A DNA stretch of 39,942 bases, taken from positions 1 to 39,942 of the forward strand of contig JAFVSI010000003.1 in assembly GCA_017503865.1 (NCBI GenBank), read 5' to 3'. How positions within the stretch are numbered: position 1 is the first letter of the stretch; each line of letters starts with the position of its first letter. The position numbers were made by a program, and so were the translations under genes. Shown piece by piece: positions 1,268-37,679 of the stretch. Below the pieces are notes generated by a model. That model did no database searches. It saw nothing but the letters and a program-made list of their open reading frames with translations, and had not been told where the DNA came from. The DNA is from Clostridia bacterium (GTDB taxonomy: Bacteria; Bacillota; Clostridia; Oscillospirales; CAG-272).

Positions 1268-2488
1268 ATGAAAAAGTTTCTTTCAGTAGTTTCATTGTTG
1301 CTCGTTGCAATGATGATATTTGCAATGCCCGTATTTGCTGATGAGGCAGAGGAGACGAAGCCCTTCGAGCTTCCCAAGGGAATACAGAAGTATTATGCCA
1401 ATGACGTAACAGGAAAGACTCCCAATATTGACGGTACTATCGCCGAGGGCGAGTACGGTGAGCTTACCGTAAGAGTTACCGATCCTACACCTTTCGTTGA
1501 CGCAGGCGGAGATTACATTGAGAATCCCAAGGAGTATCTCAAGTCCGAGTATATGGACATTTGGTTTGCTTATGATGCAGACAACATCTACGTTGCTGTC
1601 CATGACGCAGGCCCTGAAAAGTTTGCAGATAACGATGAGTTTACCTCCAACGACTATCCTTTCAGAAGCAACTATTTCTTTTGCTTTGACTTCACACCCG
1701 AGGACCTTACCGACTACTTCCGTTTCGGTGGATTTAACACAGTTACCGTTTGGAACCCCAATATGCAGTACTTTGAGTTCGGTAAGTCAAACCGTGCACC
1801 TATCAAGGTTGCTGAATGGGTTACTGAGTGTATTGTAAGAAAGGTTGACGTTACAACAGGTGCTGACGTTGGCTTTGGCGACCTTCTCACAACAAACGGA
1901 AACCCCAACTACTACGGCGGTGACTGGGAGCTCTTTATTGAGATGAAGCTCGACAAGAAGGCTGTTGCAAACGCTCTTAACGAGTGCTACTTTACCGATT
2001 ACGATACCGTTCCCAACGTTATGTACTTCAACTTTGGTACCAATATGTACAGAAGAACAGAGTGCAAGCTTGACGACAGTGGAAATGAAAAGGCAGTTGG
2101 TGACGGTGAGAGCCAGTACTACAGATGGCTTGGCGATACCATTATCAGAGACAACAACGCAGACTATGAGGACTACGGTCTTTACGAGGGCGGCAAGGTC
2201 AATGCTATGATGGACGCTATCATATTCGGTGACGAGAATACCGTTATCGCACCCGCTGATCCGTTCCCTGTAAGAGAGACTACAGAGCCTGTAACCGAGG
2301 CTCCCGTGACTGATAATCCCGACGTGGCTCCCACCGAGCCGGAAGAGACAGACACTCCCGCAGATGACGAGACAGCTGCTCCCGTTGCTGAAGGTGGATG
2401 CGACGGCTCCGTTTCCCTTGCAGGAATTGCTCTCGTAGCAGCTCTTGGAGCTTGCACAGCTTTTGTCGCAAAGAAAAAAGAGAACTAA
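1268..2488 (+). CDS. Secreted CBM9/DOMON-like surface protein, paralogue 1, with Cys-type C-terminal tail
   Basis: 406 aa. A Sec signal peptide (residues 1-24, MKKFLSVVSLLLVAM...VFA) precedes DEAEE. The body (about 45-320) begins TPNIDGTIAEGEYGEL and contains EYMDIWFAYDADNIYVAVHD, the pattern of carbohydrate-binding family 9-like/DOMON beta-sandwich domains. An acidic linker rich in TEP, TEAP and TDTPAD follows (about 325-372). The last 34 residues form a GGCDGS motif, a hydrophobic segment (AGIALVAALGACTAFVA) and KKKEN. This tripartite end resembles a membrane-anchoring sorting signal, but no LPXTG is present. It is nearly identical to the next gene, so the duplication is recent. A binding role (carbohydrate or another ligand) is inferred from the fold only. 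Confidence 0.85.
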   Translation: MKKFLSVVSLLLVAMMIFAMPVFADEAEETKPFELPKGIQKYYANDVTGKTPNIDGTIAEGEYGELTVRVTDPTPFVDAGGDYIENPKEYLKSEYMDIWFAYDADNIYVAVHDAGPEKFADNDEFTSNDYPFRSNYFFCFDFTPEDLTDYFRFGGFNTVTVWNPNMQYFEFGKSNRAPIKVAEWVTECIVRKVDVTTGADVGFGDLLTTNGNPNYYGGDWELFIEMKLDKKAVANALNECYFTDYDTVPNVMYFNFGTNMYRRTECKLDDSGNEKAVGDGESQYYRWLGDTIIRDNNADYEDYGLYEGGKVNAMMDAIIFGDENTVIAPADPFPVRETTEPVTEAPVTDNPDVAPTEPEETDTPADDETAAPVAEGGCDGSVSLAGIALVAALGACTAFVAKKKEN

Positions 2489-2504
2489 ACTACATATTTG
2501 AAAA

Positions 2505-2536
2505 AACGGAGAGGCAAATGCCTCTCCGCTTTTTTG
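2505..2536 (+). terminator. Intrinsic terminator of surface gene 1
   Basis: CGGAGAGGC, a short AAAT loop, then GCCTCTCCG, followed by a T run. The same hairpin, with few changes, follows gene 2 (3973) and the distant inverted paralogue (18707). Confidence 0.9.
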
Positions 2537-2643
2537 TTCTTTACCGATCAGTTTTTTAAAAATAAAGTTCAATAAACATAAGGCTTCACGGCAAAAGTTG
2601 ATAAATGTGAGCGAAAAGTCCACCTTTTTGAGCAAAAAGTGCG

Positions 2644-2672
2644 TTTTCATACGGTAGCTTTATTTGTATAAT
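2644..2672 (+). promoter_or_regulatory. Promoter of surface protein gene 2
   Basis: TTTTCA at 2644-2649, a 17-bp spacer, and consensus TATAAT at 2667-2672. A motif GTAAGATACGAAATA in the leader (2679-2693) matches GTAAGATGCGAAATA in the leader of gene 1 (1225-1239). Confidence 0.65.
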
Positions 2673-2736
2673 ATAGATGTAAGATACGAAATATCCATTC
2701 GTAATTTATCAAAATATAACAAAAAGGAGAACCGTG

Positions 2737-3954
2737 ATGAAAAAATTTCTTTCAATCATTTCATTGTTGCTTGTTGCAATGATGATATTTGCAATGCCCA
2801 CCTTTGCTGATGAGGCAGAGGAGACAAAGCCCTTCGAGCTTCCTAAGGGTATGCAGAAGTATTATGCCAATGACGTAACAGGAAAGACTCCCAATATCGA
2901 CGGTACTATTGCTGATGGCGAGTACGGTGAGCTTACCGTAAGAGTTACCGATCCTACACCTTTCGTTGACGCAGGCGGAGATTACATGGAGAATCCCAAG
3001 GAGTATCTCAAGTCCGAGTATATGGATATCTGGTTTGCTTATGACGAGGACAATATTTACGTGGCTATCCACGACGCAGGTCCTGAAAAGTTTGCAGATA
3101 ACGATGAGTTTACCTCCAACGACTATCCTTTCAGAAGCAACTATTTCTTTTGCTTTGACTTCACACCCGAGGATCTTACCGACTACTTCCGTTTCGGTGG
3201 ATTTAACACAGCTACCGTTTGGAACCCCAATATGCAGTACTTTGAGTTCGGTAAATCCAACCGTGCACCTATCAAGGTTGCTGAATGGGTTACCGAGTGT
3301 GTTGTAAGAAAGGTTGACGTTACAACAGGTGCTGACGTTGGATTTGGCGACCTTCTCACAACAAACGGAAACCCCAACTACTACGGTGGTGACTGGGAGC
3401 TCTTTATTGAGATGAAGCTCGACAAGAAGGCTGTTGCAAACGCTCTTAACGCGTGCTACTTTACCGATTACGATACCGTTCCCAACGTTATGTACTTCAG
3501 CTTTGGTACCAATATGTACAGAAGAGTTGAGTGCAAGCTTAGTGACAGTGGCGAAGAAAAGGGTGTAAGTGACGAAAGCCAGTACTACAGATGGCTTGGC
3601 GATACCGTTATCAGAGACAACAACGCAGACTATGAGGATTACGGTCTTTACGAGGGCGGCAAGGTCAATACTTTGATGGACGCTATCATATTCGGTGACG
3701 AGAATACAGTTATCGCACCCGCTGATCCCTTCCCTGTAAGAGAAGAGACCGAAGCTCCTACAACAGAGCCCGAAGTAACCGAGCCCGAGGTAACAGAGGC
3801 TCCCGTGGGTGACGTAACCGAAGCTCCCGCAGGCGAGACCAAAGCTCCCGTTGCTGAAGGCGGCTGCGGCGGCTCCGTTTCCCTTGCAGGAATTGCTCTC
3901 GTAGCAGCTCTCGGAACTTGCACAGCATTTGTCGCAAAGAAGAAAGAGGACTAA
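2737..3954 (+). CDS. Secreted CBM9/DOMON-like surface protein, paralogue 2
   Basis: 405 aa from ATG 2737. A GTG directly upstream (2734) could extend it by one residue, but AGGAG at 2725-2729 is seven bases from 2737, the same spacing as in paralogues 1 and 3. Signal peptide, CBM9/DOMON-like body, TEP/TEAP linker and tail are as in gene 1, with only a few substitutions outside the linker. The tail is GGCGGS, a hydrophobic stretch and KKKED. A 62-bp piece of the linker (3775-3836) is identical to one in paralogue 4 (6478-6539), which suggests exchange of 3' cassettes. It has its own promoter and terminator and is not in an operon with gene 1. The function is unproven, and a cell-surface ligand-binding role is inferred. 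Confidence 0.85.
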   Translation: MKKFLSIISLLLVAMMIFAMPTFADEAEETKPFELPKGMQKYYANDVTGKTPNIDGTIADGEYGELTVRVTDPTPFVDAGGDYMENPKEYLKSEYMDIWFAYDEDNIYVAIHDAGPEKFADNDEFTSNDYPFRSNYFFCFDFTPEDLTDYFRFGGFNTATVWNPNMQYFEFGKSNRAPIKVAEWVTECVVRKVDVTTGADVGFGDLLTTNGNPNYYGGDWELFIEMKLDKKAVANALNACYFTDYDTVPNVMYFSFGTNMYRRVECKLSDSGEEKGVSDESQYYRWLGDTVIRDNNADYEDYGLYEGGKVNTLMDAIIFGDENTVIAPADPFPVREETEAPTTEPEVTEPEVTEAPVGDVTEAPAGETKAPVAEGGCGGSVSLAGIALVAALGTCTAFVAKKKED

Positions 3955-3972
3955 TTAAATAGTTAAATACAT

Positions 3973-4003
3973 AGCGGAGAGGCTTATGCCTCTCCGCTTT
4001 TTT
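3973..4003 (+). terminator. Intrinsic terminator of surface gene 2
   Basis: AGCGGAGAGGC, loop TTAT, GCCTCTCCGCT, then a T run. It is nearly the same hairpin as at 2505. Confidence 0.9.
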
Positions 4004-4018
4004 GTAGGGGGGGTTTTA

Positions 4019-4085
4019 ATGCGGGTGGTTTTTTCAAAAAAACACCTGCCCCCGCATAATTAACACCCCTATAAATACCAATTTA
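4019..4085. repeat. Imperfect palindrome plus intergenic repeat type B
   Basis: ATGCGGG at 4019 pairs with CCCGCAT at 4051-4057 around a T/A-rich centre. Next comes CACCCCTATAAATACCAATT at 4064-4083, a short intergenic repeat found in similar form at 10926, 13311, 15060, 32749 and 36043, in either orientation. Confidence 0.65.
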
Positions 4086-4125
4086 TAAAAATGCAGAATT
4101 GTTATTTTTTTTGCAGTATTTGATG

Positions 4126-4154
4126 TTGAAATGTTTTAGTTGTTATGATATAAT
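4126..4154 (+). promoter_or_regulatory. Promoter of surface protein gene 3
   Basis: TTGAAA at 4126-4131, a 17-bp spacer, and TATAAT at 4149-4154 with an extended -10 TGA. Confidence 0.8.
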
Positions 4155-4213
4155 AAATCAACAAGATACAACCGTATAGTTGTAGCTTGAAAAATAACAA
4201 AAGGAGATAAGAA

Positions 4214-5425
4214 ATGAAAAAGTTTATTTCTATTATTTCGTTATTGCTCGTTACAGCGATGATATTTGCTGTGCCCGTATTTGCAGATGAAGCGGAAGAG
4301 AGCAAACCCTTCGAGCCTCCTAAGGGTATGACAACATACTATGCAAACAATGTTTCGGGAAATACTCCCAATATCGACGGTGTCATCGGTGAGGGCGAGT
4401 ACGGCGAGCTTACCGTAAGAGTTACCGATCCTACTCCCTTTGTAGATGCCGGCGGAGACTACATGGAGAATCCCAAAGAGCATCTCAAGTCCGAGTATAT
4501 CGACTTTTGGTTTGCTTATGATGAGAACAACGTTTACATAGCAATTCACGATCCGGGCCCCAAGTACAAGGACAACGGTGATGAATTCAAGCTCAATGAC
4601 GTTCCTTTCAGATACAATTATCACTTTAGTATGGACTTTACGCCCGAGGACCTTACCGACTATTTCCGTTTTGGCGGTGGTAATACCGTTACTGTTTGGA
4701 ATGCACAGATGCAGTACTTTGAGTTTGGCAAGTCCAACCGTGCACCCATCAAGGTATCCGATTGGGTTACAGAGTGCATCGTGAGAAAGGTCGATAAGTC
4801 AACGGGTGCTGACATAGCGTTCGGTGACCTAATTACAACCACAGGAAACCCCAACTTCGCTACCGGCGAGTGGGAGATGTATATGGAGCTCAAGCTCGAC
4901 AAGAAAGCTGTTGCTAAGGCTCTCAACGATTGCTACTTTACCGATTATGATACCATTCCCAACGGTATGTATTTCTCGTTTGGTACAAACGGCTTCCAGG
5001 CAATAGGAACCTATAAGGCTGACGGAAAAACGGAGAATCTCGAGCCTAACGATACACAGTATTACAGATGGCTCGGAGCTAACATTATCAGAGACAACAA
5101 CGGTGACTATGAGGAGTTTGGTCTTTACGAGGGCGGCAAGGTCAACACAATAGGTGACCTCATAATTTTCGGCGACGAGAACACAGTTTTTGAGCCTGCT
5201 GATCCTTTCCCTGTAAGAGAGACTACAGAGGCACCTACCGAGGCTCCTACAACCGAGCCCGAGGTAACAGACGCTCCCGCAGACGAGACCGAAGTTCCCG
5301 CAGGCGAGACCGAAGCTCCCGCAGATGAAGGCGGATGCGGCGGCACAGTTGCAGTTGCAGGAATTGCTCTCGTAGCAGCTCTCGGAACTTGCACAGCATT
5401 TGTCGCAAAGAAAAAAGAGGACTAA
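4214..5425 (+). CDS. Secreted CBM9/DOMON-like surface protein, paralogue 3
   Basis: 403 aa, with AGGAG seven bases before the ATG. Signal peptide to VFA (residue 24), then the CBM9/DOMON-like body starting TPNIDGVIGEGEYGEL. It is clearly homologous to genes 1 and 2 but more diverged, for example HDPGPKYKDNGDEF where those have HDAGPEKFADNDEF. The linker repeats TEAP, TEP and ADETE. The tail is GGCGGT, a hydrophobic stretch and KKKED. The last 34 residues are identical to those of the inverted paralogue at 18748-19983, yet the last 21 sense codons differ at nine synonymous positions and at no amino acid. This indicates selection on the tail peptide itself. The ligand is unknown. Confidence 0.85.
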   Translation: MKKFISIISLLLVTAMIFAVPVFADEAEESKPFEPPKGMTTYYANNVSGNTPNIDGVIGEGEYGELTVRVTDPTPFVDAGGDYMENPKEHLKSEYIDFWFAYDENNVYIAIHDPGPKYKDNGDEFKLNDVPFRYNYHFSMDFTPEDLTDYFRFGGGNTVTVWNAQMQYFEFGKSNRAPIKVSDWVTECIVRKVDKSTGADIAFGDLITTTGNPNFATGEWEMYMELKLDKKAVAKALNDCYFTDYDTIPNGMYFSFGTNGFQAIGTYKADGKTENLEPNDTQYYRWLGANIIRDNNGDYEEFGLYEGGKVNTIGDLIIFGDENTVFEPADPFPVRETTEAPTEAPTTEPEVTDAPADETEVPAGETEAPADEGGCGGTVAVAGIALVAALGTCTAFVAKKKED

Positions 5426-5458
5426 AATCTAAAAGGCATAATTATACTTAATAAAAAT

Positions 5459-5491
5459 AGCGGCAGGGACTTGCGTTTCTGCCGCTGTTTT
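5459..5491 (+). terminator. Intrinsic terminator of surface gene 3
   Basis: AGCGGCAG pairs with CTGCCGCT (5479-5486) and is followed by GTTTT. The loop contains the likely -35 element of the next gene. Confidence 0.75.
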
Positions 5492-5499
5492 GATATAAT
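5471..5499 (+). promoter_or_regulatory. Promoter of surface protein gene 4, overlapping the upstream terminator
   Basis: TTGCGT at 5471-5476 lies in the terminator loop. A 17-bp spacer leads to TATAAT at 5494-5499 with an extended -10 TGA. Confidence 0.7.
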
Positions 5500-5550
5500 G
5501 GATACATAAGGCAAAGAATTGCCAAAAAAACGATCGAAAAGGAGCTTTTT

Positions 5551-6660
5551 ATGAAAAAATTTTTACGCGTTCTTTCCCTCGCACTCGTAGTTATTATGAG
5601 TTTGGCTATGTTTTCTTTTAATGCTTTTGCAGAAGAAGCAGACGTAAACTCACAGCACAGAACCTTTTACACAGGCAAGGATTATGCCGTTAGCGATGAT
5701 GACATTATTTTCAAAAGATGGACTCCTGTTGAGGATGGCTTTGTAAAGGTTAACGATGAGCCTATCAATGCAAACATCACAAGTAAGCTTTTCAACAAGG
5801 GATGTACGCAGTCGGGTGTTGTCGTTACTCCGTCCGAGGAATATGCGATATATCCTATCGTTCCTTCCTTTGACTACTATGTAGCAAAGTCGGATACAAC
5901 TATTTACATAGTATTCGATATGCTCTACCATTCTCTTACAGAGGGCAACGGAATTGGTGTGAACGATACTATCGACGTTTGGACCAGTGACTACTATAAG
6001 TATTTCAGAATAGGTTTTAACCCGAATGACTACACACAGCAGATAATCGTTTCTACACGCGGACATGGACTTGATAACGACAGCCAGAAGGGCTTTTTCT
6101 ACATTGCCGATGGGGATAGCGCTGATGAGCTTTGGACAGGATACAACAGCCAGAGCCCCTATTACAAGTATGCAATTTGCGGAACAGGTTCAAATGTAAT
6201 TCCCGGGCACCGTATAAGAAAGTATGGCTTCGACATTGAAGAAATGAAGAAGCTTTATCTTGAGAAGTTTGGTGTAACGCTCACCGATGAGGATTTTGAT
6301 TCGATTTTTGTTTCGGGCGGACACAGATTCCGTGAGCAGGGAAAGACTTCTGCAAGTGAAAACCAGTTTAACGGAACCTACGGAACTCTTCTTACCGATG
6401 AACTTGGTAATACAACTCTCGTTCCCGACCTTATCGTATTCGGTTCTGAATTTGATGAGGAAGAGACTACCGAGCCTGTAACCGAGCCCGAGGTAACAGA
6501 GGCTCCCGTGGGTGACGTAACCGAAGCTCCCGCAGGCGACGAGACAGACGCTCCCGCAGAGGAAGGCGGCTGCGGTTCTTCCGTTACACTTGCAGGAATT
6601 GCTCTCGTAGCAGCTCTCGGTACTTGCACAACATTTGTCGCAAAGAAGAAAGAGGACTAA
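5551..6660 (+). CDS. Secreted surface protein, paralogue 4, with a divergent body and the same C-terminal tail
   Basis: 369 aa, AAGGAG six bases before the ATG. The signal peptide ends about residue 27 (NAFA). The body (about 30-300) is not alignable by eye with genes 1-3 over its full length. It does keep a DOMON-like pattern: YYVAKSDTTIYIVFDM, then YKYFRIGFNPNDYTQ, which parallels NYFFCFDFTPEDLTDYFRFG in gene 2. The linker and tail match gene 2 closely, with 62 identical bases (6478-6539 against 3775-3836), then GGCGSS, a hydrophobic stretch and KKKED. It therefore looks like a different ectodomain joined to the shared display cassette. Function unknown. Confidence 0.8.
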   Translation: MKKFLRVLSLALVVIMSLAMFSFNAFAEEADVNSQHRTFYTGKDYAVSDDDIIFKRWTPVEDGFVKVNDEPINANITSKLFNKGCTQSGVVVTPSEEYAIYPIVPSFDYYVAKSDTTIYIVFDMLYHSLTEGNGIGVNDTIDVWTSDYYKYFRIGFNPNDYTQQIIVSTRGHGLDNDSQKGFFYIADGDSADELWTGYNSQSPYYKYAICGTGSNVIPGHRIRKYGFDIEEMKKLYLEKFGVTLTDEDFDSIFVSGGHRFREQGKTSASENQFNGTYGTLLTDELGNTTLVPDLIVFGSEFDEEETTEPVTEPEVTEAPVGDVTEAPAGDETDAPAEEGGCGSSVTLAGIALVAALGTCTTFVAKKKED

Positions 6661-15336: not shown

Positions 15337-15409
15337 AACCCTAACACAAAAAGCACAAGACCATTATACAATTATGTTTTGAAATAATCAAGTTGTTTTG
15401 AAATATTTA

Positions 15410-15438
15410 TTGACGAATGACTTTGAAAGGGATATAAT
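15410..15438 (+). promoter_or_regulatory. Promoter of the glycyl radical enzyme operon
   Basis: TTGACG at 15410-15415, a 17-bp spacer, TATAAT at 15433-15438. It lies inside the upstream part of the open frame, which rules out starts before about 15445. Confidence 0.85.
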
Positions 15439-15472
15439 GATGGTGAAAAGCAAGAAAAGGAGACGAGCTGAA

Positions 15473-17716
15473 ATGTTGGGAACTTTTGAAAAAGACAGAG
15501 CTTGGCTTGAAAATAAATATCACAAGGTAGAGGAGTCTTTTAACCCCTACCAACGTATGGCGTATCACGGTCACGATTACGACGCGACAACGGGGCAGAG
15601 CGACGAGGAGATCCTCGAGGGACTTCGCTCGCTTGCAAAGGAGACCGAGGGGCTTTCGCACCCCATAGCAAAGGTAAAGGCTATCGAGTACGTTCTCAAA
15701 AACACACGAATTGACGTAAACGAGCACGATTATTTTATCGGTCTTTATTCTTGGAACAGACTTCTACGCGAGACAACGGTGCTAAAATGGAAGACTGAGG
15801 TCTTTGACGAAATTATCCCCGAGGTTGGCGAGTCGATGAAGGATTATAATGACTCCGGAGCTATGGCTATCTGGCCTGATTTTGACCACGTTGTACCCGA
15901 TTGGGATTCGCTTGTGAAGCTCGGCTTTTCGGGAATTCGCGAGCGTGCGAGAGAGTACAGGATAACACGCGAGGAAAAGTGCGGCCTTTCCGATAAGGAA
16001 AGAGATTTTTTTGAGGCCATCGAGCTTGAATATACGGCGATAATCGGATTTATCGACCGTCTTTATAAATATGCCTTGACTAAAAATCACGCAAAGGCAA
16101 AGCGTGTGGCGGACTGCCTATTACATCTCCGCGACGGAGCACCCACTAATATTTACGAGGCGATGCAGCTTATCTTCCTTTACTTTATGATTTCCGAGTC
16201 GGTTGACCACTATCAGGTGCGTTCTCTCGGCAACGGGCTTGATTTTACGCTTTATCCCTTCTACAAAAACGACATTGAAAGCGGTACGTTCAGCGAGGAC
16301 GAGATAAGAGAATTCCTTGCATATTTTATGTTCCAGTGGTCGGCAATAGGCAACTATTGGGGACAGCCCTTTTATCTTGGCGGAAGCGGTGAGAACGGTC
16401 AAACGCTTATAAACGAGCTTTCCTACCTTATCGTTGACGTTTACGACAAGATGTGTATTTACAATCCAAAAATACAGATTAAGTACAATAGCAATATACC
16501 CGAAAAATTCCTTTTCAAGGTTTTTGATATGATAAGACGCGGAAATAGCTGCTTTACATTTTGCTGCGAGGAGAACTATATCCGTGCGGTGATGAGCTAC
16601 GGTGCAACGTACGAGGAAGCTCGTACTATGGACATTCGCGGCTGTTACGAGACGGGAGTCAGAGCCAACGAGGTTTCGGCGGCAACGGGATATGTCAATC
16701 CCCTCAAGGCGGTTTCTTACGTTTTCTCAAACGGCTATGAGGAAAGGCTTTCGAAGCAGATAGGTGTCAAGAGCGGTGAGATAAACGACTCTTGGAGCTT
16801 TGAGGATTTCAAGGCGGCATTTTTCAAGCAGTATGCTCACATAATTGACGATGTGATTCGTCTTGCCAACGCATACGATCCCTATATGGAATACATCAAC
16901 CCCTCGTCGATGTACTCGGCGACCGTTAAAAGTAGCCTTGAAAACGCGTTTGACGGCTACGGCGGCGGAGTCAAATTTAATAATTCCTCAGCTCTGCTTT
17001 GCGGTCTTGGAACTGCGGTTGACGCAATTATGGCAACTAAATATCTCGTTTACGAGAGGGGAGAGCTTACTCTTAGCGAGCTTAAGGCGGCACTTGACGC
17101 TAACTGGCAGGGCTACGAGAGAGTACGTGCTATGGCACTTCGCTGTCCCTACAAATACGGCAACAATAGCACCGAGGCTGACGAGTGTGCAAAGGAGCTT
17201 TCAAAATTCTTTGTAGAGCGAGTTGAGGGCAAGAAGAACGGCAGAGGCGGTGTCTACAAGGCACTTTTGCACTCGGCAATGCAGTTCGTTTGGCAGGGAC
17301 AAAAGACGGGAGCAACTCCCGACGGACGCCTTGCGGGCGAGGAGATTTCAAAGAGTGCGTCTCCCACTCCCGGAATGGACAAAAATGGCGTTACTGCTCT
17401 CATTTCCTCCGTGACAAAGCTCGAGCCTTATACTTACAGCGAGGGCTTCTGTCTTGACGTGATGCTTCACCCGACGGCAGTTTCGGGCGATGAGGGACTT
17501 CAAATTATGAAATCACTCCTCGACGTATATGCGGCACGCGGCGGAATGGTAATGCAGTTTAACATTTTTGATGCTAACACCTTGCGTGATGCACAGAAAA
17601 ATCCCGAAAAATACAAGAATCTTCAGGTGCGAGTTTGCGGCTGGAACGTGCTATTCAACAATATGAGCCGTGCCGAGCAGGACGCATATATAGTAAGAGC
17701 GGAGAACGTGATATGA
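15473..17716 (+). CDS. Glycyl radical enzyme, pyruvate formate-lyase family, unknown substrate
   Basis: 747 aa from ATG 15473, chosen because AAGGAG (15457-15462) precedes it and the promoter lies just upstream. Longer versions starting before 15445 would begin ahead of the transcript. The active-site cysteine is C391 in DIRGCYETG, with E393 in the place of the usual catalytic glutamate. The C-terminal glycyl radical site is G723 in VRVCGWNVLF. The PFL-like barrel is recognisable in FTFCCEENYIRAVMSYGATY and GNYWGQPFYLGG. Most dehydratase- and lyase-type members read GCVE at the active site, so GCYE is unusual. The reaction cannot be assigned: dehydratase, C-C lyase, C-S lyase and decarboxylase are all possible. 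It needs anaerobic conditions and the downstream activase, to which it is coupled by an ATGA overlap. Confidence 0.88.
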   Translation: MLGTFEKDRAWLENKYHKVEESFNPYQRMAYHGHDYDATTGQSDEEILEGLRSLAKETEGLSHPIAKVKAIEYVLKNTRIDVNEHDYFIGLYSWNRLLRETTVLKWKTEVFDEIIPEVGESMKDYNDSGAMAIWPDFDHVVPDWDSLVKLGFSGIRERAREYRITREEKCGLSDKERDFFEAIELEYTAIIGFIDRLYKYALTKNHAKAKRVADCLLHLRDGAPTNIYEAMQLIFLYFMISESVDHYQVRSLGNGLDFTLYPFYKNDIESGTFSEDEIREFLAYFMFQWSAIGNYWGQPFYLGGSGENGQTLINELSYLIVDVYDKMCIYNPKIQIKYNSNIPEKFLFKVFDMIRRGNSCFTFCCEENYIRAVMSYGATYEEARTMDIRGCYETGVRANEVSAATGYVNPLKAVSYVFSNGYEERLSKQIGVKSGEINDSWSFEDFKAAFFKQYAHIIDDVIRLANAYDPYMEYINPSSMYSATVKSSLENAFDGYGGGVKFNNSSALLCGLGTAVDAIMATKYLVYERGELTLSELKAALDANWQGYERVRAMALRCPYKYGNNSTEADECAKELSKFFVERVEGKKNGRGGVYKALLHSAMQFVWQGQKTGATPDGRLAGEEISKSASPTPGMDKNGVTALISSVTKLEPYTYSEGFCLDVMLHPTAVSGDEGLQIMKSLLDVYAARGGMVMQFNIFDANTLRDAQKNPEKYKNLQVRVCGWNVLFNNMSRAEQDAYIVRAENVI

Positions 17717-18609
17717 GCGAAAACAAGGCAAGGATATTCGAAATAAAGCGTTTTGCCGTTCACGACGGAGACGGAATCAGAACGACGGTTTTTTTCAAGG
17801 GCTGTCCGCTCCGCTGCGTGTGGTGTCATAATCCCGAGGGAATCTCGACAAAGAGCGAGCTTGGCTTCTTTTCGCACAAGTGCAGCCTTTGCGGAGATTG
17901 CGAAAGGGTTTGCCCCGAGGGCGTGCATAAGCTCGAGGGGGGCAGACACCTGCTTGACAGGGCGAGGTGCATTTCTTGCGGCAAATGTGTCGAGGAGTGT
18001 ATGGCGGGTGCTCTTACCGTTTACGGCAAGGATATGACGGTCGACGAGCTTTTGCCGATGCTTCTTGAGGACACCGATTTTTACAAATCGTCAAATGGCG
18101 GAGTTACCCTTTCGGGCGGTGAATGTCTCTTGTGGGCGGATTTTTGTGCCGAGTTGCTCAGGGAACTTCGAAAAAAGGGAATATATACGGCAGTCGACAC
18201 CTGCGGAGACGTGCCGAGGGAGAATATTGACAAGGTCTTGCCGTATACCGACGTTTTTCTTTACGATATAAAGGCGATTGACAGTCGACTTCACGAGTTT
18301 GCAACGGGCAGACCTAACGAGAGGATTCTTGAGAACCTCAAGTATCTTGACAGTGTGGGTGCACCTTGCGAGATCCGTATTCCCTTCGTTCCCGAATTTA
18401 ACGGCGGAGAACTTAAAAAGATGGCAGAATTTTTGTCGGGGCTCTCAAATATCGTGCGAGTGCGAGTCCTTCCGTATCATAACTACGCAGGCTCTAAATA
18501 TCTTGCACTCGGACTTCGCAACACTTTGCCCGGCAAGATGCCCAGCGAGGAAGAGCTTGCCGAGGCGGAGAGCTATTTTGAAGAGATAAATATGAGGGCA
18601 ACAAAATAA
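17713..18609 (+). CDS. Glycyl radical enzyme activase (radical SAM)
   Basis: 298 aa from ATG 17713, which overlaps the stop of the glycyl radical enzyme gene (ATGA) and so implies translational coupling. The radical SAM cluster motif CPLRCVWC (CX3CX2C) lies about residues 34-41. An inserted ferredoxin-like part has CSLCGDCERVCP and CISCGKCVEECM, for two extra [4Fe-4S] clusters, as in activases of glycerol dehydratase or choline lyase type rather than PflA. GGVTLSGGE is the SAM-binding GGE motif. It uses S-adenosylmethionine to place the radical on G723 of its partner. A strong terminator follows. Confidence 0.93.
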   Translation: MSENKARIFEIKRFAVHDGDGIRTTVFFKGCPLRCVWCHNPEGISTKSELGFFSHKCSLCGDCERVCPEGVHKLEGGRHLLDRARCISCGKCVEECMAGALTVYGKDMTVDELLPMLLEDTDFYKSSNGGVTLSGGECLLWADFCAELLRELRKKGIYTAVDTCGDVPRENIDKVLPYTDVFLYDIKAIDSRLHEFATGRPNERILENLKYLDSVGAPCEIRIPFVPEFNGGELKKMAEFLSGLSNIVRVRVLPYHNYAGSKYLALGLRNTLPGKMPSEEELAEAESYFEEINMRATK

Positions 18610-18747: not shown

Positions 18748-19983
18748 TTAGTCCTCTTTTTTCTTTGCAACGAAAGCTGTGCAAGTGCCGAGGGCTGCTA
18801 CAAGTGCGATACCTGCAACTGCAACTGTGCCGCCGCATCCGCCTTCATCTGCGGGAGCTTCTGTTTCACCTGCGGGAGCTTCGGTCTCGTCTGCGGGAGC
18901 TTCGGTTATCTCGGGCTCGGTTACCTCGGGCTCGGTCTCTTCGGGCTCGGTCTCAGGTCTTACAGGGAAGGGATCAGCAATCTGGATCTCAGTATTCTCG
19001 TCACCGAAAACGATGAGGTCGAAGAGGAACTCTCTGGTAGAGCCCTCGTAAATACCGAAATCGGTGTAAGCAGCAGGATTGTCAATGAGTATCTGACGAA
19101 TGTCAGTGTTTCCTGTCCACTTGTAGTACTGGCCGCTAGCTTCTGAATTTCTCTGGTACTGGTTGGTAGAGCAACCAAAATACATAGCGTTAGAAATGGT
19201 ATCATAGTCTGTGAAGTAACAAGCGTTAAGAGCTTGTGCAACAACGCTCTTTTCAAACTTGAATTCCATTGTCATAGCACACTGACCGTCAGCGTAGTTG
19301 GGGTTACCGTTAGAGGAGAGAAGGTCTCCAAATCCAACGTCTTCATTCTTTTCAATGTCAGTCTTTCTGATTACAGCCTCGCTGATGAGGTCGTATGCAG
19401 CGATGGGAGAAGAGTTCTTTTTACCAAACTCGAAGTAAGAGAACTCGTCCTTTGCCCACTGAACGTTGGTCTTGAAGCCCTGCATCTGGAAGTAAGAGGA
19501 AAGGTCATTAAGGTCAAATCCCATATTGAATACCCAGTTAGCTCTTGCGGGAACAAGTCTGTCGGTCTTTCCCTCAACAATTTCTATTGCCTTGGGTCCC
19601 ATCTCATAGATAGCGATGTAAACGTTGTTCTCATCATAAGCGAAGTAGAAGTCAATGTACTCGGAAACTGCGGTGGGATCGGCAACGGGCTCTGCTGTGA
19701 GATCCTGATGGTTTGAACCGTAGTTGTTGGCAGGAACAGGATCTGTGATTCTGTAAGCCTTGCCGTACTCACCCTCGGAAATCGTACCGTCGAGAAGGGG
19801 AGCCTTGCCCTCAACGTTTTCAGCGTAGTAGATCTTAATGCCTGTGGGAGCAGTCCAAGCAGATGCGGTTTCTGCCTCTTCGCCCTCAACGGGTGCTGCG
19901 TCAGCTTCCTCAGCTGCAACCATAGGAGCTGCAACCAAAAGAAGAGCAAGCATAAGAGCTATGATAGATAAGAATTTTTTCAT
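18748..19983 (-). CDS. Secreted CBM9/DOMON-like surface protein, paralogue 5 (inverted, 12 kb from the others)
   Basis: 411 aa. Signal peptide MKKFLSIIALMLALLLVAA with a likely cleavage near VAA-EE (residue 24). The body keeps the family pattern: APLLDGTISEGEYGKAYRI, then EYIDFYFAYDENNVYIAIYEMGPKA, NWVFNMGFDLNDLSSYFQMQG and a conserved LIVFGDENTEIQIADPFPVRPE near the linker. The linker is rich in TEPE, TEAP and ADETEAP. The tail GGCGGT, hydrophobic stretch and KKKED is identical in protein to that of paralogue 3 despite nine synonymous changes in the last 21 sense codons. AAGGAG is about eight bases before the ATG, and the gene has its own promoter and terminator. Probably a cell-surface ligand-binding protein. 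Confidence 0.85.
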   Translation of the reverse strand: MKKFLSIIALMLALLLVAAPMVAAEEADAAPVEGEEAETASAWTAPTGIKIYYAENVEGKAPLLDGTISEGEYGKAYRITDPVPANNYGSNHQDLTAEPVADPTAVSEYIDFYFAYDENNVYIAIYEMGPKAIEIVEGKTDRLVPARANWVFNMGFDLNDLSSYFQMQGFKTNVQWAKDEFSYFEFGKKNSSPIAAYDLISEAVIRKTDIEKNEDVGFGDLLSSNGNPNYADGQCAMTMEFKFEKSVVAQALNACYFTDYDTISNAMYFGCSTNQYQRNSEASGQYYKWTGNTDIRQILIDNPAAYTDFGIYEGSTREFLFDLIVFGDENTEIQIADPFPVRPETEPEETEPEVTEPEITEAPADETEAPAGETEAPADEGGCGGTVAVAGIALVAALGTCTAFVAKKKED

Positions 19984-36042: not shown

Positions 36043-36064
36043 CACCTATAAATACCAATTTAGG
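36043..36064 (-). repeat. Intergenic repeat type B next to a stop codon
   Basis: CACCTATAAATACCAATTTA. Its end overlaps the stop codon of the minus-strand gene at 36060. Confidence 0.6.
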
Positions 36065-37679
36065 AAAGGTAGGTTACGTATTTTTCTCTCTTTGCAACTA
36101 CCTGAGAAATGCGGTTAAAATCGTTGGTGAGGATAACGTCGATACCCATATCGAGGAACTTTTCGGTCTCCTCCTCGTTGTCAGACCAAAAAACGTTGCA
36201 GATGATGCCGTTCTCGTGTGCCTTATCGACCATTTCCTGCGTGAAATGTCCCTTGACGAGCTGCACCTTCTTACAGCCGTACTTTATAGCACGTTCAACT
36301 ATCGTTCTGCGGCCCTCGTCTGTACCGCCGCCTCCGCAGCAGCGAGCTATCTCGGGATATTCGGTCTGAAGTCTCGCAAGAAGCTTGTCGCTTCCCGTCA
36401 TAAAGTAAACGTATTTTTCGCAGTCGTATTTCCTTATGAGCGACACGACCTTGTCAAGATATTCGGGCTTTTCTCCCGCTGTCTTAAGGTGAATATTCAT
36501 AACGCAGTGGCAGGAGAATTTTTTGAGTATTTCCTCAAAAGTAGGAATCTTCATTCCCGCAAAGCACTCGCCCTTCTTTATACCAAAGTCAAGCTCACGA
36601 AGCTCTGCAAGTGTGTAGTCTCCAATCTTGCCCGTGCCGTTTGAAACTCTGTCGAGTACGGGATCGTGGATAGACACTACCTCGCCGTCACTTGTGTACC
36701 AGATGTCGAATTCTATCTCCTCGGCACCGAGAGCCACCGCTGCACCGTATGCGGCAAGGCTGTTTTCGGGAGCTACCTTGTTAAATCCTCTGTGAGAGCA
36801 GGTGCGGGGGTAGGGCATTATCTCGTCGTGACGGACTATAGCACTTCCCGCAGGGCGATATTTCCAGGGACGGCGTCCCTTTTCGATGTACTCGTAGTGA
36901 GCCGCAGGGGGATTGCCAAAGCCTGCGGGCTTGAAGTATTTTTTGTCGGGATCTATCTCGATTGTCTCGATGCCGACGCGGCTCTTCATATTTACAAGAA
37001 CCTCGCCGTTTGGTGCTACTACCATCGAAGCACCGCCGATGTCGGAATTTTCGTCCATCGATACTGACGAACGAAGCACGTACGTATTTGAGTTGTACGC
37101 AAGTGTCTGCGAGAAGATCTCAAGAGCAAGGTGTGTGTCACTTCTTTGGTGTGAGCAAACAATAACGAAATCAAGGTTTTGACGAGCCATATTTGCAAAC
37201 GCCTCATAGAAATAGCAGTCATAGCAAACGAGGAAGCCGAAGCGGTAGCCCTCAAGCTCAATTACGGTGGGCTCTGAAAATTCAAAGCCGTAATCGCTGT
37301 CAAGGCGGGTTCTCGTTACCTCTCCGGGCGTGAGATGCTGCTTGAAATACTTGCCTGCAACGTTACCCTCGCGGTCAAATGCGTAAGTCGTGTTGCGGAG
37401 CCCCGTCTCTTCGAGTGAACGGGCATTTACAAAAATCATAGCGTGGCAACGCTTTGCGGTTTTTGATACCTCGTCAAGAAGGCGTTTGTTGTATTTTTCG
37501 TATGAAGCATAGGAAAGCTCTCGGGTTTTTGCAAGGCAGGGAACGTCACACGACTCGGGCATAATTATCATATCCATACTCTCGTCGCACTGATTAAGCA
37601 GCTTTAGCTGCTCCTCAAAATAAAGGTCGGATTTTTCATAGTCGGTCGAATATGCCGGCTGTATGAGACAAATTTTCAT
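36060..37679 (-). CDS. Nitrilase-superfamily hydrolase fused to a glycerophosphodiester phosphodiesterase
   Basis: 539 aa. Residues about 1-260 are a carbon-nitrogen hydrolase with the Glu-Lys-Cys triad E42 (MPES), K113 (YFKQHLTPGE) and C152 (LVCYDCYF). Residues about 290-535 are a GDPD barrel: CSHRGFNKVAPENSL (H296, R297, E305), EEIEFDIWYTSDG (E323, D325) and SIHDP (H338). The catalytic residues of both halves are present, so both may work. Nitrilase-type enzymes cleave amides and GDPDs cleave glycerophosphodiesters. One protein acting on an amide-containing lipid head group is an attractive but unproven idea. No signal peptide. It lies 20 bases after the glycerate kinase gene. Confidence 0.88.
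   Translation of the reverse strand: MKICLIQPAYSTDYEKSDLYFEEQLKLLNQCDESMDMIIMPESCDVPCLAKTRELSYASYEKYNKRLLDEVSKTAKRCHAMIFVNARSLEETGLRNTTYAFDREGNVAGKYFKQHLTPGEVTRTRLDSDYGFEFSEPTVIELEGYRFGFLVCYDCYFYEAFANMARQNLDFVIVCSHQRSDTHLALEIFSQTLAYNSNTYVLRSSVSMDENSDIGGASMVVAPNGEVLVNMKSRVGIETIEIDPDKKYFKPAGFGNPPAAHYEYIEKGRRPWKYRPAGSAIVRHDEIMPYPRTCSHRGFNKVAPENSLAAYGAAVALGAEEIEFDIWYTSDGEVVSIHDPVLDRVSNGTGKIGDYTLAELRELDFGIKKGECFAGMKIPTFEEILKKFSCHCVMNIHLKTAGEKPEYLDKVVSLIRKYDCEKYVYFMTGSDKLLARLQTEYPEIARCCGGGGTDEGRRTIVERAIKYGCKKVQLVKGHFTQEMVDKAHENGIICNVFWSDNEEETEKFLDMGIDVILTNDFNRISQVVAKREKYVTYLS

Follow-up and report, generated by a model that had tools for sequence, protein, structure and literature searches.

The 39,942-nucleotide contig JAFVSI010000003.1 of a Clostridia bacterium (assembly GCA_017503865.1; Oscillospirales, CAG-272), here called the window, raises the question of what becomes of a C-terminal tail common to five of its proteins. 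In each of them a signal-peptide-like N-terminus (judged by eye) is followed by an ectodomain, a Thr/Pro/Glu linker, and a tail consisting of GGC[GD], a hydrophobic helix and KKKE[DN]. An earlier sequence-only reading proposed this tail of five secreted proteins as a candidate sorting signal. The open reading frames (ORFs) and their alignment confirm that the tail is shared: the five tails align without gaps, and 25 of the 35 columns are invariant. With a probability of roughly three in four, the tail is a cysteine (Cys)-type C-terminal surface-sorting signal with a two-enzyme system of its own, in which Lgt2, a paralogue of the prolipoprotein diacylglyceryl transferase Lgt, would lipidate the Cys, and CPBP3, an intramembrane protease, would cut the tail, leaving the protein on a C-terminal lipid anchor.

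The tail recurs throughout the 2.14-Mb draft genome (95% complete), where the window makes up contig 23 entirely. The profile built from the five window tails had both Cys in every row, and hence equal weight on both; it matched 26 tails at E ≤ 0.0034, every one at the end of its ORF, and the next match was at E = 4.1. With a profile built from 25 of these 26, the matches numbered 27. The first Cys is present in all 25 distinct tails of this genome and in all 38 tails of a sample taken from this and other genomes. In the same 38 tails, the distance from the Cys to the basic residues is always 22–24, position -1 is always Gly, position +4 is always I, V, L or M, and position +1 is Gly in 35. 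The tripartite C-terminal signal with an invariant Cys, by which MYXO-CTERM signals are recognised, was found in 38/38 tails, though conservation of the Cys was favoured by the search, since the tails were collected with a Cys-containing profile. The second Cys (LGTCT), which the sequence-only reading had included in the signal, does not belong to it, being present in 22 of the 25 distinct tails of the genome but in only 15 of the 38 in the wider set.

Anchored, secreted-looking proteins were also selected, without regard to Cys, from the ORFs of the 60 gene neighbourhoods described below (n = 31). A Cys was found at the helix start in 19 by script; by reading, 18 carry this tail, nine a PxTG sortase-type tail, and four neither. 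An ordinary stop-transfer helix, left unprocessed and with a Cys that is incidental or engaged in disulfides, would also be hydrophobic with a basic end, as all the tails are, and 24 of the 38 tails score, if weakly, against the NPXTG sortase-tail model. Such a helix is nevertheless a very unlikely explanation, because the Cys is kept in all tails while the helix varies, its spacing and its neighbours are constrained (subject to the same bias of the search), and the tail co-occurs with both CPBP3 and Lgt2.

The genome encodes four CPBP proteases. It also has a second Lgt gene, that of Lgt2, and the CPBP3 gene begins within its final codons; for this reason the co-occurrence of both with the tail was profiled. 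CPBP3 scores 62.1 bits against PF02517 (cut-off 22.4), which places it among the CPBP/Rce1-like glutamic intramembrane proteases, and the motifs EExxxR and FxxxH and a second His are present in 59/59 sequences. Lgt2 scores 111.7 bits against PF01790 (cut-off 24.9) and is thus a member of the prolipoprotein diacylglyceryl transferase superfamily. It falls below the two NCBIfam Lgt equivalog models (126 of 334 and 70.2 of 118.9 bits), and so does not count as a true Lgt; the true-Lgt signature GRxGNFxNGE is replaced by GRxGCxxxGCC. A canonical Lgt (242 bits, PF01790) is encoded on another contig of the same genome.

Two profiles were used to follow the tail among genomes. The narrow profile consists of the tails of the window's genome; with a cut at E ≤ 0.01, it detected tails in 19 of 30 genomes of the genus. 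The broad profile was drawn from the same genome, its genus, G137, G156 and L088, without use of the enzyme data. In a sample of 256 genomes drawn evenly from the family, the broad profile found tails in 71 at E ≤ 1e-3 and in 61 at E ≤ 1e-4. In the order (a sample of 197 genomes), the narrow profile matched eight other genomes, of which only G137 and G156 have real Cys tails on reading. The order-wide matches of the broad profile outside the family, except that in G137, were rejected, as they start at model position 5 or later and leave the Cys uncovered (judged from the coordinates). The only convincing tail found outside the family among the 197 order genomes is a single Cys tail in G137 (L035), a member of another family. 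A scan of named genomes gave one distant relative with a tail, Oscillospiraceae bacterium SIG681 (L088).

In the family sample, the CPBP3 orthologue is sharply delimited, with 55 genomes at 84 bits or more and the next at 51 bits. It is present in 53 of the 61 tail genomes at E ≤ 1e-4 and in 2 of the 195 others (Fisher p = 1e-43); the looser cut, E ≤ 1e-3, gives 53/71 against 2/185 (p = 1e-36). Lgt2 shows nearly the same distribution (52/61 vs 2/195 at E ≤ 1e-4); all of the 54 family genomes that have it also have CPBP3. In the genus of the window (n = 30), 16 genomes have both tail and CPBP3, three the tail only, one CPBP3 only, and ten neither (p = 9e-5). Among 78 additional genomes tested, CPBP3 was found in 12 of 23 further members of this genus. 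No orthologue was found in 55 non-family genomes, G137 included, where the best score was 46.7 bits.

The Fisher p-values ignore the relatedness of the genomes, and the 55 CPBP3 genomes are spread over 16 genera. It might accordingly be supposed that the two enzymes act on some other substrate of these genomes, and that their co-occurrence with the tail reflects shared ancestry. When CPBP3 was shuffled within genera (27 genera with tail or CPBP3, using those members for which a genus label was available), the observed agreement was reached in 6 of 100,000 runs at E ≤ 1e-4 and in 26 of 100,000 at E ≤ 1e-3. The shuffle is informative in five genera at the stricter cut and in four at the looser. 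Presence and absence of the tail and CPBP3 thus agree inside genera, and this, together with the position of tail genes beside the enzyme pair (below), makes this explanation very unlikely. The tracking of the tail with a CPBP-type intramembrane protease, which had been anticipated from the window sequence, is therefore borne out. The lack of any co-occurring processing enzyme, an outcome that would have told against the first reading, did not arise, since CPBP3 tracks the tail across the family genomes.

Gene order gives evidence of a different kind. The Lgt2 gene is followed by the CPBP3 gene on the same strand in 53 of the 54 genomes with both, at a distance of -17 to 242 bases. In the remaining genome (G368) the two genes are on different contigs. 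In G287, where Lgt2 was not found, a contig end lies 150 bases from the start of CPBP3. Of the 67 genomes that have CPBP3 or the pair, 60 were included in a comparison of neighbourhoods (54/55 from the family sample and 6/12 from the further genus members). Lgt2 and CPBP3 apart, even the most frequent gene cluster is shared by at most 12 of these 60. In 17 of the 60 loci, spread over seven genera, the gene immediately preceding Lgt2 encodes a tail protein; neither the pairing of the protease with an Lgt paralogue nor this position of tail genes had been anticipated in the sequence-only reading. Of these upstream genes, 15 of the 17 were identified by profile, and two (L186 and L197) by reading the upstream ORF. 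The probability of this by chance is 3e-18, with a generous rate per locus and the loci treated as independent, or 4e-8 when counted by genus (6 of 16 genera). Seven of the 17 upstream tail proteins were scanned against Pfam and proved to carry differing cargo: three have Ig-like repeats, one F5/8 type C, one CBM9, and two have no family over the cut-off.

The residues of Lgt2 bear in both directions on the part proposed for it. In an alignment with E. coli Lgt (5azb), which supplies the numbering, the equivalents of R143, Y235, R239, E243 and R246 are kept in 60/60 Lgt2 proteins. All 60 also have Cys at the positions of N146 and E151, with a third Cys adjacent. In one study of E. coli Lgt, complementation failed with variants of R143, R239, E243, R246 and E151 (PMC4728403). 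In a later one, E151 and E243 were dispensable, and N146, R143 and R239 essential; the same study also mentions distant Lgt proteins in which N146 is replaced by Cys and E151 by Cys or Asp, as well as a divergent Lgt group that includes Myxococcales (PMC13251419). In phylogenetic terms Lgt2 is a single clade of 60 (100/100 support), separate from 12 other GCC-type Lgt proteins. These 12 (L246–L257) represent a second GCC-motif paralogue, Lgt3, about 36–41% identical to Lgt2; no CPBP or tail gene was seen in their neighbour lists, by inspection and with no family search run. Seven genomes have only the Lgt3 type (161–182 bits), none of them with CPBP3 and one with a weak tail match.

It is conceivable that CPBP3 cuts the tail while Lgt2 serves otherwise, in a different lipid or thiol modification or in an assisting role, the tail Cys being unmodified or modified by the housekeeping Lgt. 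The replaced residues and three invariant Cys would fit this, as would the canonical Lgt elsewhere in the genome and the cleavage of a myxosortase substrate in E. coli without a dedicated partner (PMC11980579). Against it stand the adjacency of Lgt2 and CPBP3 in 53/54 genomes amid differing neighbourhoods, and the retention of the residues aligned with R143, R239, E243 and R246. A separate purpose for Lgt2 is therefore considered unlikely.

A number of observations weigh against the proposed two-enzyme system. Eight tail genomes at E ≤ 1e-4 lack CPBP3 (G243, G249, G276, G365, G372, G389, G393 and G436). Some of them are rich in tails (13 in G436, ten in G365 and six in G249), and completeness reaches 92% in G243 and 90% in G249. 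CPBP3 is also missing from the genus tail genomes G198, G213 and G220, from all ten genomes with weak tail matches (E between 1e-4 and 1e-3, by profile alone), and, along with Lgt2, from G137, the sole convincing tail genome outside the family. Conversely, CPBP3 occurs without a detected tail in G252 (52% complete), G408 (94%) and the genus member G224. In the window's own genome the pair does not adjoin a tail gene. The cut for Lgt2 is not sharp (190.9 vs 188.9 bits), the 189-bit score below it coming from an additional copy in a genome that is counted anyway. The Cys at the positions of N146 and E151 imply that the donor or the chemistry of Lgt2 may differ from those of true Lgt. The broad profile is derived mostly from genus members, and is most sensitive near the clades that also carry the enzymes. 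Finally, of the genome's four CPBPs it was CPBP3 that was profiled, and the tracking does not by itself rank it above every other protease. As regards the eight tail genomes without CPBP3, 5.8 would be expected from incompleteness (P of eight or more is 0.21), and CPBP3 is present in 43 of the 45 tail genomes that are at least 90% complete. Its absence from the eight is thus about what incompleteness predicts.

The tail has the tripartite layout and Pro/Thr-rich linker of LPXTG-like signals, and sortase is present in 28 of the 71 tail genomes, which might indicate a sortase-type cell-wall anchor with an unusual motif. The LPXTG motif is missing from all five window tails, as was noted in the sequence-only reading, and a PF04203 (sortase) search of the 95%-complete draft genome gave no match. 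In the family, sortase is anti-correlated with the tail (28/71 vs 112/185 in the other genomes; p = 0.003). Sortase thus does not track the tail, and the tails were rejected as sortase substrates because of its absence from the genome and this anti-correlation.

Ten tails (those of window proteins 1–4 and six others, protein 5 being omitted because its 32 residues are the same as those of protein 3) were also compared with models of known signals at their stated cut-offs. None of the ten exceeds a stated cut-off of a known CTERM family. All are below the NPXTG and LPXTG cut-offs, the closest being L060 (14.7 of 15.9 bits), which adds to the evidence against a sortase-type anchor and leaves it extremely improbable. 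Among the 38 sampled tails, the MYXO-CTERM models TIGR03382 and NF045522 gave one match (E = 0.007) and three matches (best E = 0.026), respectively, insufficient for membership. None of the JDVT-CTERM, Synerg-CTERM and CGP-CTERM models appears in a listing of 25 of the 26 families that the 38 tails matched.

In one genus (g8; L206, L208, L210 and L219), nine secreted-looking proteins with PxTG sortase-type tails, most ending like PATGFATVAIALAAVGSGAYIVSKKRH, lie within a few kilobases of the Lgt2-CPBP3 pair. Sortase-type and Cys-tail anchoring seem, from these sequences, to coexist in it.

The genes of window proteins 1 to 4 form a tandem array on the forward strand (1268–6660). Protein 1 (406 residues; 1268..2488) ends in the signal EGGCDGSV..KKKEN (2390..2485). 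Protein 2 (2734..3954), in whose ORF a GTG at 2734 is followed by an ATG at 2737 (405 residues from the latter), ends in EGGCGGSV..KKKED (3856..3951). The signals of protein 3 (403 residues; 4214..5425) and protein 4 (369 residues; 5551..6660) are EGGCGGTV..KKKED (5327..5422) and EGGCGSSV..KKKED (6562..6657). Protein 5 (411 residues; 18748..19983) is encoded on the reverse strand, and its signal (18751..18846) is identical in peptide sequence to that of protein 3. These assignments come from ORFs and alignment for the proteins, and from alignment and the tail profile for the signals. Proteins 1 and 2 are 92% identical, which suggests a recent duplication or conversion. Proteins 4 and 5 are, respectively, 32% and 51% identical to protein 1 overall, the tail of protein 4 being conserved.

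The last 34 residues of proteins 3 and 5 are identical, and their last 21 codons differ at nine synonymous and no nonsynonymous sites, exactly as first counted. Strong selection on the peptide had been deduced from this pair. The 14 codons preceding those 21, however, are identical in DNA, so that part of the tail was probably shared by recombination, and the pair alone is weak evidence of selection. The claim of selection is better upheld by the 27 tails of the genome.

None of the ectodomains of the window tail proteins scored above the cut-off for a Pfam or NCBIfam family. Compared by profile with the CBM9 tail proteins of a different genome, the window proteins reached a probability of 90.7 over 96 columns, but since these include the signal peptide, likeness to CBM9 is only a guess. 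The cargo of the signal elsewhere in the genome is varied, nine of ten other tail proteins scanned having a Pfam family: cohesin, LamG with a calcineurin-like phosphoesterase (three proteins), CHAP, heparinase II/III-like, purple-acid-phosphatase type, another phosphoesterase, and MBG/CBM_X2. One tail protein (L238) has two cohesin matches and is a possible surface-held scaffold. Elsewhere in the window, a pyruvate-formate-lyase-like glycyl radical enzyme and a radical SAM protein resembling its activase are encoded beside tail protein 5 (15398–18609), and a 539-residue protein joining carbon-nitrogen hydrolase and glycerophosphodiester phosphodiesterase domains is encoded at 36060–37679 on the reverse strand.

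The two-enzyme sorting system may be pictured as follows. The tail protein would be exported and held by its C-terminal helix, with the N-terminus outside and the Lys-rich end inside. At the outer face of the membrane, the invariant Cys would receive a lipid of some kind from Lgt2. CPBP3 would then cut on the helix side of the lipidated Cys, and the product would be a protein anchored by a C-terminal lipid. The last point takes the myxosortase model (PMC11980579) as its analogue. Around the Cys, the sequence may be read as a lipobox in mirror image, running from the membrane side as I/V/L, small, small, Gly, Cys. Such an arrangement would fit an enzyme of the Lgt fold that acts on an oppositely oriented helix. 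Whether the system goes so far as to be a C-terminal lipoprotein pathway, with an inverted lipobox, a three-Cys Lgt paralogue as the lipidating enzyme, and a CPBP protease in place of both LspA and sortase, is in our estimate evenly balanced. These bacteria seem to anchor many surface proteins by a C-terminal Cys tag with a lipidating enzyme and a protease of its own.

If true, the scheme would explain how these bacteria, some of them without sortase, display many surface proteins, and would provide a function for part of the second-copy Lgt proteins. Because the Lgt paralogue and CPBP pair tracks the signal and lies beside a substrate gene in several genera, the question of the missing lipidating enzyme becomes directly testable, and the pairing, if real, would fill this gap in a protein-sorting pathway described not long ago. 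The divergent Lgt group reported to include Myxococcales (PMC13251419), and Lgt-like paralogues more generally, would then be candidate lipidating enzymes for other Cys-type signals.

Among known systems, the closest is MYXO-CTERM, which in M. xanthus comprises 35 substrates with a CPBP-family glutamic intramembrane protease, the myxosortase MrtX, as partner. It has been studied at the bench, and its protease is known; for the enzyme that should lipidate the Cys beforehand, which that study does not identify, Lgt is put forward on the ground that the substrate is cleaved in E. coli too (PMC11980579). The parallel with MYXO-CTERM drawn from the window sequence holds well: both signals consist of an invariant Cys, a helix and a basic end, both have a CPBP protease, which here tracks the tail, and both serve many secreted substrates per genome. 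That the tail would work like MYXO-CTERM is, by this analogy, well supported. The two differ in the ending, which is Arg-rich in MYXO-CTERM and composed of Lys, Glu and Asp in these Clostridia, and in the bacteria concerned. CPBP3 is far under the cut-off of each Mrt model matched in NCBIfam (MrtJ, 21.7 bits against 75; Mrt core, 18.7 against 100; MrtP, 12.2 against 250). What is new relative to the published myxosortase system, as read here, is the gene of an Lgt paralogue beside that of the protease. Among the titles and abstracts listed in literature searches, which left most subscription journals outside, none described an Lgt paralogue coupled to a CPBP protease in the handling of C-terminal signals.

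The signals of Synerg-CTERM and CGP-CTERM also have an invariant Cys, and CPBP partners (MrtS and MrtA). JDVT-CTERM likewise combines an invariant-Cys signal with a CPBP partner, MrtJ, which adjoins its single target gene, much as a tail gene adjoins the pair in 17/60 loci. The present system differs from these three in its many substrates per genome and its extra Lgt gene. In the bacterial lipoprotein pathway, Lgt and then LspA act at a Cys next to a membrane helix, so that there too an Lgt-superfamily enzyme and an intramembrane protease work around such a Cys, with a Gly before it, as in the tail. Here, in contrast, the helix is C-terminal and the topology would be inverted, the cut would be made by a CPBP protease and not by LspA, the lipid would end up at the C-terminus, and the Lgt signature is altered. 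Eukaryotic CaaX processing is similar in that lipidation of a C-terminal Cys precedes Rce1-type cleavage behind the lipidated Cys (PMC11980579), the order proposed here. It is different in that the present reactions are predicted to be extracytoplasmic, the Cys is followed by a helix instead of aaX, and the lipidating enzyme would be of the Lgt superfamily and not a prenyl transferase.

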